A DNA stretch of 64,000 nt, taken from NCBI GenBank assembly GCA_026706635.1, contig JAPOYJ010000022.1, positions 1-64,000 on the forward strand, read 5' to 3'. The DNA is from Gemmatimonadota bacterium (lineage in GTDB: Bacteria > Gemmatimonadota > Gemmatimonadetes > Longimicrobiales > Gaopeijiaceae). The translations under genes were made by a program, and so were the position numbers. The notes beneath the pieces are model-generated. The model worked only from the letters and a program-made list of their open reading frames with translations, made no database searches and was not told the DNA's origin. The stretch's first letter is position 1. Each line of letters begins with the position of its first letter. Below are positions 13,996-23,870 of the stretch, one piece after another.

Positions 13996-14425
13996 CCAGC
14001 AGCCCGTGGACAAACCTCCCACGGCATTCGAGCGGCGCTGCATCTCCGCTGGATCGCTTCGCTCGCTTATCCATACTGTAATCTATGCCTTACAATGTGT
14101 AATCCATGGTTTACAATGCCCGTACCCGGGGCTTCGCTCTGCGTTGCTCCTCGGACCAATAGCGCTGCGGCTATTGGCCCATGCGGCCCGCAGAATGCAC
14201 CCTGGCGGCATTCGAGGGGCGCTGCATCCGTGCTGGATCGCCTTGCTCTGCGTTGCTTCTTGGGCGAATGGCTCCGCCATGCGCCCCGCAAAGCGCCTTG
14301 CCAGCCCGGCGCTTCGCCCCTCTCGGTGCTCGCCCGGGCACATCCACGGACCGCTTCGTCGCGCCTTGCCAGCGGAGCGCTTCGCCGCTCTCGGTGCTCG
14401 CGCGAGGTTATCCACGGACTGCTAC
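13996..14425 (+). repeat. CTAG element copy 3 (rpsM-rpsK), longest copy with promoter module
   Basis: About 430 bp. Left tip CCAGCAGCCCGTGGACAA, right tip TTATCCACGGACTGCTAC. It contains the left hairpin, the promoter/operator module (14077-14117), the CCAATAGC-GCTGC-GGCTATTGG inverted repeat, and the internally duplicated blocks also seen in copy 1. It is close to identical to copy 1 outside the module, which suggests recent spread or gene conversion. It splits rpsM from rpsK within the alpha operon. Confidence 0.85.
14077..14117 (+). promoter_or_regulatory. Portable promoter/operator module in front of rpsK-rpsD-rpoA-rplQ
   Basis: TGTAA 14077, TTACA 14090, TGTAA 14098, TTACA 14111. As a promoter: CTTACA 14089-14094, 17 bp, TACAAT 14112-14117. 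The predicted transcript would start near 14124 and have a leader of about 325 bases through the rest of the element before rpsK. Confidence 0.6.
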
Positions 14426-21229: not shown

Positions 21230-22189
21230 ATGGACTTCGCTTTTCGATTGCCCTCTGCGGGGACGGTTTGCCTGTCGGCTCCTACGGCGACCGTCTTCGC
21301 CATCCTCGTGGCCGCCGGGTGCGGTGCCGATGCCGGCGAGGAGACCGCGCTGCTCAGGGGAGATCGCGCCTTCGCGCACGGCGACTACGAGGAGGCGCTC
21401 GCCGAGTACCGGCTCTCGATGCTCCGCGACAATCCCGGAGGCGAGGCGGAGATGAGGGCCGCCCACGCCTACGCCGCCCTCGACCGGATTGACGAGGCCA
21501 GCTCCCTCTATCAGCGGGCGGTCCGGGGCGACAGCGCCTACGCCGACCAGGCGATCTCCGATCTGGTCGCCGCGGCAATCCGGGCACAGGCCGGGGGTGA
21601 CAGCTACGGAATGGCCTCCGCGATCGAGGCCGCGCAGAGCCTCCGCCGAGGGATAGTCGTGGAGGAGCTGGCATTGGCGCTCGCCCGCCACTACAGCGAG
21701 ACGGGTCAGGGCGCCCGCGCCCGGCCGCTCTACCTGCGGGCCCTGGGTGCCGACCCCACCGACCCGGAGGTCGTCTTCGAGACGGCTCTCGCGCACGTTG
21801 AGATAGGGGACTGCGAGAGTGCGCTCCACTACCTCGCCACCTTCGGCGAGCTCGCGCCGGATCGATCGTCCGAGGCCAACTGGCACATCGGCTGGTGCTC
21901 GTACGAGCTCTTTCGGGAGCGCCGCAGCCAGGGTCACGTCGAGGAGGCGGTCGAGTTGCTGGAGGCGGTGATCAGGCACGAGGAGCCGCGCACCCACCTG
22001 CCACAGGCCTACTTCGACCGGGCCGACCTGCTCTCTGATATGGGCGAGTGCGCCGCCGCCGTAGAGGCGTACCGCGCCGTGGCAACTCGCTTCGGAGCTG
22101 GCCACGGCGCCCTCGCCCGCCGTGCGCTCAACCGGATGGACTCGATTCGGTTCGGGGTGGGCACCGAAGGGGGAGCCGGGGCGTGCTGA
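21230..22189 (+). CDS. TPR-containing lipoprotein
   Basis: 319 residues. N-terminal hydrophobic stretch ending in LVAAGC looks like a lipobox, placing the protein on an envelope membrane. The rest is helical repeats of TPR type (for example GDRAFAHGDYEEALAEYRLSM, then ARARPLYLRALGADPTDPEV). Function is not known; such proteins usually act as assembly scaffolds. Overlaps the next lipoprotein gene by seven bases, suggesting a two-gene unit. Confidence 0.75.
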   Translation: MDFAFRLPSAGTVCLSAPTATVFAILVAAGCGADAGEETALLRGDRAFAHGDYEEALAEYRLSMLRDNPGGEAEMRAAHAYAALDRIDEASSLYQRAVRGDSAYADQAISDLVAAAIRAQAGGDSYGMASAIEAAQSLRRGIVVEELALALARHYSETGQGARARPLYLRALGADPTDPEVVFETALAHVEIGDCESALHYLATFGELAPDRSSEANWHIGWCSYELFRERRSQGHVEEAVELLEAVIRHEEPRTHLPQAYFDRADLLSDMGECAAAVEAYRAVATRFGAGHGALARRALNRMDSIRFGVGTEGGAGAC

Positions 22190-23055
22190 GGTCGCATACC
22201 GTGCCGGTGTCGCTACTGGCGCTCCTGGTCGCATCGTGCGCCACCACGCCGCCGTACTTCGGGTGGACCGCCGATCAGCTCTACCAGCACGGTGAGCGAG
22301 CGCTGGAGGCCAAGGACTGGGGAGAGGCCCAGCGCACCTTCGAACGTCTGGTGCTCAGTCATCCGGGGTATGGCCAGGCGGTCCAGGCGCGCCACCACCT
22401 GGCCCGCGCCCACTACGAGAGGGGCGAGTACCTCAGCGCGGTGGGGGAGCTGACCCGCATCGTGCAGGTGTACCCGGACGACCCCCGCACTCCGCGCGCC
22501 TGGCTCTGGCTCTGCCGCTCGTACGCCGCCATGTCTCCGCACCCCCAGCGCGACCAGCAGTACACGATGCAGGCGAGGAACACCTGTGGCCAGGTTGCCG
22601 GCGACCTAGTCGGCACGCCGACGGGGGATTCGGCTGCCGTCGTGGCCCGCGAGATGGTCGACAAGCTCGGTCAGCAGGCCCTCGCTGTCGGTCAGTTCTA
22701 CTATCAGCGCAGGATCTACGGCTCGGCGGAGCACGTCTTCCGGCGCCTCCTGGAGGACTACTCGGAGACGACCGCCGCGCCCACCGCCCTAATGCGCCTG
22801 ATCGAGATCTACGAGGACTGGGGATGGGACGACCAGCGGCAGGAGACGAGCGATAGGCTCCTGCGGCAGTACCCGCAGTCGCCTGAAGCTAGGGCTCTGA
22901 CGGAAGTGGCGATGCCGGACTCGGTTGCGCGGGCGGCGAACCGAGGTGCGCTCTTGTGGAGTCTGCGGCGGGTGTGGCGTCTAGCAGCCCGTGGACAGCC
23001 CTCCCACGGCATTCGCCCGGCGCTGCATCGCCGCTGGACCGCTTCGCTTGGCTAG
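22183..23055 (+). CDS. BamD-like TPR lipoprotein with repeat-derived C-terminus
   Basis: 290 residues from GTG 22183. Signal LLALLVASCATTPPYF with a lipobox Cys, then TPR-like helices (GERALEAKDWGEAQRTFERLV, AVQARHHLARAHYERGEYLSAV, cited in part) in the order seen in BamD/YfiO, the outer-membrane beta-barrel assembly lipoprotein. Three or more TPRs are followed by a longer spacer than in classic BamD, so an outer-membrane role is likely but not proven. The last 24 residues (from LAARGQPSHG) are read through the left part of CTAG-element copy 4 up to a TAG at 23053. Confidence 0.75.
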   Translation: MLRSHTVPVSLLALLVASCATTPPYFGWTADQLYQHGERALEAKDWGEAQRTFERLVLSHPGYGQAVQARHHLARAHYERGEYLSAVGELTRIVQVYPDDPRTPRAWLWLCRSYAAMSPHPQRDQQYTMQARNTCGQVAGDLVGTPTGDSAAVVAREMVDKLGQQALAVGQFYYQRRIYGSAEHVFRRLLEDYSETTAAPTALMRLIEIYEDWGWDDQRQETSDRLLRQYPQSPEARALTEVAMPDSVARAANRGALLWSLRRVWRLAARGQPSHGIRPALHRRWTASLG

Positions 23056-23236
23056 CCACAATGTAATGTATGATTTACATTGTGTAATCCATGGTTTACA
23101 ATTACCATACCCGTGGCGTCTCTCTGCGTTGCTCCTCGGACCAATAGCGCTACGGCTATTGGCCCTTCGTCGCGCCTTGCCAGCGGGGCGCTTCGCCGCT
23201 CGCGGTGCTCGTGCGAGATTATCCACGGACTGCTAG
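22981..23236 (+). repeat. CTAG element copy 4 (bamD-like to nadD)
   Basis: 256 bp with both CTAG tips (22981-22984 and 23233-23236). Contains the left hairpin CCGTGG-N9-CCACGG, the promoter/operator module (23062-23102), CCAATAGC-GCTAC-GGCTATTGG, and the right end with TTATCCACGGACTGCTAG. The internally duplicated middle of copies 1 and 3 is absent. Its left end is coding for the upstream lipoprotein and its right end holds the start codon of nadD. Confidence 0.88.
23062..23102 (+). promoter_or_regulatory. Portable promoter/operator module in front of nadD-secA
   Basis: TGTAA 23062, TTACA 23075, TGTAA 23083, TTACA 23096. As a promoter: TTTACA 23074-23079 (5/6 to TTGACA), 17 bp, TACAAT 23097-23102 (5/6 to TATAAT). 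Predicted transcription start near 23109, about 96 bases before the nadD start. Confidence 0.65.
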
Positions 23237-23870
23237 CTCTCGCGTAGGGGTCTTCGGCGGCACCTTCGATCCGCCGCACCTGGGTCACGCCCGAGCCGCC
23301 TCCGAGGTGCTCCGCGTGCTGGCGCTCGACCGGGTCCTCTGGATCCCGTCGCACCTCTCCCCCCACAAGCGGAAGAAAGCGAGCTCGCCGCCCGGCGTCC
23401 GTTGGGAGATGGTGTGCGCCGCACTCCGGGGGGAGCCAGCCTTCGAGGCCACTCGGGCCGAGCTGGACCGCGGGGGCGTTTCCTATACGATCGACACGCT
23501 CCAGCAAATTCAGGCGAGCCACCCGCAATGGGAGCTATTCCTGATCCTGGGCCCGGACCTGATCGACGGCCTTGGGTCGTGGAGGGCACCGGTGGAGATT
23601 GCCTGCATCGCCCAGTTGGTGGCGCTGCGATTCGAGGGACGGGAAGGGCTGGCCGCAGCCGGCGTTGGTGGCGAGAGTGCTTCGGCTCCCGCGCCGTCGC
23701 ATGTTGTCGACCTGGCTCCGTGCGACATCTCCTCCTCCCGAATTCGTCGGCGTGTGGCGCGGGGCAGGCCCGTTTCGCATATGGTGGTGCCCGCCGTCTT
23801 GGCCATTATTCAGAGTAGGAAGCTCTACATGCGCCGCGGGGACGTGCCCCCGGATCCGGAGTCTACCTGA
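23205..23870 (+). CDS. nadD: Nicotinate-nucleotide adenylyltransferase
   Basis: Adenylates nicotinate mononucleotide in NAD synthesis. 221 residues from GTG 23205 (GTG 23211 is also possible). VGVFGGTFDPPHLGHARAA is the nucleotidyltransferase HxGH block, SYTIDTLQQI and the C-terminal DISSSRIRRRVARG complete the family. Every in-frame start codon close enough to the conserved core lies inside CTAG-element copy 4, so residues 1-11 (MLVRDYPRTAS) are repeat-encoded. No ribosome-binding site is evident. Followed by secA after 35 bases. Confidence 0.92.
   Translation: MLVRDYPRTASSRVGVFGGTFDPPHLGHARAASEVLRVLALDRVLWIPSHLSPHKRKKASSPPGVRWEMVCAALRGEPAFEATRAELDRGGVSYTIDTLQQIQASHPQWELFLILGPDLIDGLGSWRAPVEIACIAQLVALRFEGREGLAAAGVGGESASAPAPSHVVDLAPCDISSSRIRRRVARGRPVSHMVVPAVLAIIQSRKLYMRRGDVPPDPEST

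Follow-up and report, generated by a model that had tools for sequence, protein, structure and literature searches.

How does an essential gene begin when the only start codons that its reading frame offers lie within a dispersed repeat? The question is raised by nadD, the gene for nicotinate-nucleotide adenylyltransferase, which is essential for NAD synthesis and which, in the window (the whole stretch of 64,000 nucleotides that was analysed), stands between the gene of a YfiO/BamD-like lipoprotein and secA, the latter named from its sequence. The host genome is a 2.81-Mb draft of 86 contigs, 96% complete, whose nearest named relatives by NadD are the Gemmatimonadota MAGs RHO3_bin_71 and SB0662_bin_23. 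The nadD reading frame (23205..23870, + strand) encodes 221 amino acids from a GTG borne by the repeat, and its product matches the CTP_transf_like family (PF01467, E 6.9e-18) and contains the sequences GGTFDPPHLGH and DISSSRIR. The first-pass annotation had held that GTG 23205 and GTG 23211 are the only in-frame starts near the NadD core, and our scan of the frame agrees with it. From the in-frame stop upstream of GTG 23205, namely TAG 23145-23147, to GGTFDPPHLGH these two are the only ATG, GTG or TTG codons, and none of CTG, ATT, ATC or ATA occurs in frame over the same interval. After them the frame offers no start-type codon before GTG 23307, which falls beyond the motif; a protein begun there would lack the nucleotide-binding motif.

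Both GTG codons had also been placed inside the right end of a repeat, and this is borne out by the alignment of dozens of copies from the same genome, which sets the limits of a 250-bp interspersed element at 22984..23233 (+ strand), with GCAGCCCGTGGACA at the left end and TATCCACGGACTGC at the right end. A pattern search allowing up to three mismatches found 149 left and 130 right tips in the 2.8-Mb genome, and the reversed patterns used as control matched no tip in it. The terminal inverted repeats are short (about 12-14 bp) and conserved at both ends, and the family, high in copy number and dispersed as is typical of MITEs, is present in 23 of 23 congeneric genomes. Its members fall into size classes of about 172-175, 223 and 247-250 bp; the nadD copy is below the limit of about 600 bp usual for MITEs and too short to hold a transposase gene, the longest ORF that crosses it being of 81 aa and terminating in a tip TAG. 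The dinucleotide TA flanks this copy on the left (22982..22983, within CTAG 22981-22984) and on the right (23234..23235, within CTAG 23233-23236), as it does 29 of the 75 elements for which both ends were identified, a count far over expectation for a genome of 68% GC and indicative of target-site duplication. Insertion sites frequently carry CTAG alongside the TA duplication; for a derivation from IS630/Tc1-mariner elements, both would be expected together with a related transposase. On the basis of these sequence features, the repeat at nadD is best explained as a TA-targeting, non-autonomous MITE-like element.

Other copies present further situations. Tips standing far apart were searched for an autonomous parent of the family, and one structure of 1750 bp (locus L169, 1276-3025) came to light. 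It looks less like a parent than like a perfect-tip copy that an IS110-family-like transposase gene (1547-2656) has apparently interrupted, in which case the repeat may serve as a target for another element. At the same locus, the gene at 123-1316 takes its end (the last 14 residues plus the stop) from an element tip read inward, another gene end supplied by the element. A HupE/UreJ-like membrane protein gene is split mid-frame by an element copy at locus L176 (1993-2212), and the window has nested, partly duplicated tips at 271-410 and 14286-14425, immediately ahead of genes for ribosomal proteins judged from their sequence to be S10-like and S11-like. The ends of eight contigs of the draft coincide with element copies, and the repeat is probably a main cause of the assembly breaks.

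To reconstruct the locus before insertion, we joined the two flanks of the element with a single TA. The joined flanks read GTG GCG TCT AGC TCT CGC GTA GGG GTC TTC GGC, or MASSSRVGVFGG in translation, and the GTG with which they open (22974..22976, + strand, now separated from the gene) stands exactly 10 codons before GGTFDP; the element entered after the third codon of nadD. Read in its own frame, the upstream gene closes with RRVWRLALA and a TAG exactly 11 nt before GGTFDP; this TAG is found today at 23245..23247 (+ strand) within the nadD codons GTA GGG. The ancestral nadD was co-directional and overlapping with the upstream gene. Among congeners, nadD was located in 21; in 10 of these, the closest ones included, codon -10 is an ATG, the upstream gene stops at -11 and the junction is free of the element. 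Comparison of nadD 5' ends in relatives free of the insertion was the check originally suggested for the idea that the repeat supplies initiation, and its outcome supports that idea: the 10 congeners start exactly 10 codons before GGTFDP, which is where removal of the element restores a GTG. The empty allele is known here from congeners, among which the NadD of the closest relative is only 53% identical. Since two independent landmarks are restored together and the TA is duplicated, a chance or chimeric origin of this arrangement is very unlikely. In one congener a tip-like sequence, GCAGGCCGTGG, follows the stop of the upstream gene 97 nt before the GGTFDP of nadD, and may be either an eroded element end or a chance match.

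The occupied allele has a different beginning and a different end for the two genes. GTG 23205 (23205..23207, + strand), the likely present start of nadD, lies 29 nt inside the right end of the element and is conserved in element copies, and the second possible start, GTG 23211 (23211..23213, + strand), arises from a C to T change specific to this copy, the consensus being GCG in most copies. Initiation at GTG 23205 would give the N-terminus MLVRDYPRTASSRVGVFGG. The earlier attribution of residues 1-11 to the element tip holds for residues 1-9 and for two thirds of codon 10 and fails for residue 11, the codon of which (AGC) combines the A of the target duplication with native GC. The initiation context of GTG 23205 is weak, with SD-like pairing of -5.0 kcal/mol at a spacing of 15 nt and partial pairing of the codon itself in the predicted fold; elsewhere in the window, genes have initiation signals of no greater strength. 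In several congeners nadD has no upstream start codon except at some 28 codons ahead of the motif, from which it follows that N-terminal extensions of NadD are probably tolerated. On the other side of the junction, the BamD/YfiO-like lipoprotein ORF (22048..23055, + strand, its start codon uncertain; PF13525, E 8.4e-24) draws its last 24 residues and its stop, TAG 23053-23055, from the element and the target-site copy.

We consider it probable, at roughly 0.87, that the element inserted in the stop/start overlap and displaced the native GTG, so that nadD now starts in the element tip. A MITE-like element would have transposed into the overlap between the end of the bamD-like gene and the start of nadD, parting GTG 22974 from its gene by 250 bp containing three in-frame stops and replacing the stop of the upstream gene. 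The left part of the element would then have given a stop in the frame of the upstream gene, and its right tip an in-frame start, for which GTG 23205 is a likelier candidate than GTG 23211. Both genes would have survived, with NadD beginning MLVRDYPRTASSR in place of MASSSR. The insertion, the earlier arrangement of the two genes and the lack of another usable start are evident from the sequence itself. Since nadD is also single-copy with intact motifs, we infer that ribosomes most probably initiate at GTG 23205.

Transcription of the displaced gene would proceed from the upstream operon, from a promoter-like site of the element, or from both. The AT-rich block of the element carries the site TTTACA-17 nt-TACAAT (23074..23102, + strand), which has 10 of 12 sigma70-like matches where 0.1 such sites are expected in shuffles, and which is found in most copies carrying that block. 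No terminator able to halt read-through from the upstream gene was found on that strand. The sequence demands a start codon from the element and no more than that; dependence of nadD on the repeat for its promoter, the weaker part of the original idea, is only one possible arrangement, and nadD may be transcribed from the upstream gene, the element site, or both. The same block, characteristic of the longer element class, contains two TGTAAT-N6-TTTACA palindromes set 21 bp apart (23062..23100); they recur in most long copies and resemble a paired regulator operator (TyrR-box-like), and related TGTAA...TTACA motifs occur in element copies of other congeners. An 8-bp stem-loop, CCAATAGC-GCTACG-GCTATTGG (23141..23162, + strand), lies in the would-be nadD leader, the folding of which shows nothing beyond that of shuffled sequences (z -0.6).

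The capacity to supply a start codon is not confined to the right tip at nadD. In both tips a start codon faces outward, at 29 nt from the end and in the same phase (GTGCTCGCGCGAGATTATCCACGGACTGC at the right, ATGCCGTGGGAGGTTTGTCCACGGGCTGC at the left), and further genes of the genome are left without their native start after an element and have an in-frame start inside it. At least four genes besides nadD appear, from their flanking sequences, to have been re-started from element copies. A native start reappears when the flanks are joined at a creatininase (MDPTIAGAR|GDPAAR), whose orthologues begin at a corresponding part of the protein, at a TlpA-like lipoprotein (MRTIKPNSRRPRYRWPRSRAR|AVAANLAK), at a second lipoprotein (MNARPIAG|WAGALGAVALAGC) and at an AddA/UvrD-like helicase, which has its native GTG at -12 and its element start at -76. 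Some of these loci have imperfect target-site copies, which makes the reconstructions there less secure than that of nadD. Two other congeners have a tip motif some 60 bp ahead of the stretch that matches creatininase, apparently from an insertion independent of the one in the present genome.

It could be argued from such cases that the start codons of the tips have been selected as a built-in donor: with an outward ATG or GTG in phase at both ends, and often a promoter-like block behind, the element would enter gene 5' ends and overlapping pairs without killing the gene, and the donation would aid its spread. The tips of other congeners, with GTG in 11 of 11 right ends and ATG in 10 of 11 left ends, and the approximately five re-started genes of the present genome are in keeping with this proposal, which we nevertheless regard as unlikely. 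The start codons are no more conserved than the neighbouring bases of the tips (CGGTGCTCG, GAATGCCG), as would be expected of a transposase-binding block, and genes that survive random insertion are expected to be in frame anyway. Moreover, a second genome, which consists of a single contig, has few re-started genes: its 40 forward-coding flanks include about two signal-peptide genes without a native start, for which the element offers starts at -65 to -73, and no gene there is clearly re-started from the -29 codon. The survival of those insertions that fell in frame explains the cases more simply than a selected function does.

As to nadD itself, the interpretation that its start was replaced by the element tip has to be weighed against the chance that this copy is broken and not translated, either as a dying gene or as part of a mixed population. 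The sequence does come from a metagenome-assembled genome, which is a population consensus, and NadD departs from its relatives at six of the 52 columns on which they all agree, keeping the other 46. Yet the frame is open over its full length with coding-like codon use, the motifs GGTFDPPHLGH and ISSSxxR-type are intact, and a search with the NadD protein matches one place in the genome, so highly complete, the two other PF01467 matches sitting on other contigs; a decaying copy is hence quite improbable. A second possibility is that translation still begins at the native GTG 22974 by read-through, or at an unconventional native codon. This would profit from the length of the insert, which together with the target-site copy amounts to 252 bp (84 codons) and keeps the native frame, but that frame reads VASSSPWTALPRH and then runs into three stops within the element, and the native codons before the motif (AGC TCT CGC GTA GGG GTC TTC) contain no known start codon, leaving the idea with very little probability. 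Finally, the joining of two unrelated loci through a repeat copy during assembly is scarcely credible, for although the repeat does break the assembly and many draft contigs end in it, the YfiO-like gene and nadD adjoin in relatives too, and once the element and one TA are taken out, the overlapping stop and the start both return to their conserved positions.

The displacement of the nadD start into the element tip would mean that a selfish repeat can enter two important genes where they overlap and that both can still be read, the repeat itself providing the stop of the first and the start of the second. If this were general, the annotation of start codons in repeat-rich genomes would have to allow for element-coded N-termini, and repeat tips would constitute a measurable source of new protein ends. 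Several known systems resemble the present one in part. The palindromic elements of Rickettsia (RPE) are repeats found in frame inside protein-coding genes (reviewed in PMC10969869); they differ in being read through as internal peptide inserts, whereas the element at nadD terminates one gene and begins its neighbour. Correia elements of Neisseria are likewise abundant MITEs near genes, with sigma70-like promoters able to drive their neighbours (PMC10969869), but they are known for promoters and transcript effects rather than for start codons, a comparison made here by description; our literature search for Correia elements with start codons returned nothing direct. MITEAba12 of Acinetobacter is a 113-bp element with outward promoter-like sites, three insertions of which give adjacent genes the first residues MQQS from the element end (PMC6382973). 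It shares with the nadD repeat its short and non-autonomous nature, the outward promoter-like sites and the element-coded N-termini. Gene 5' ends supplied by an element are consequently already known, and MITEAba12 is a published precedent. Its host is unrelated, and the passages considered do not describe loss of the native start by the fused genes (PMC6382973), whereas at nadD an essential gene in a stop/start overlap was hit and the ancestral start can be located. The present case adds a located ancestral start, an essential gene, a stop/start overlap mended at either side, and the recurrence of such events, independently, within a single genome.
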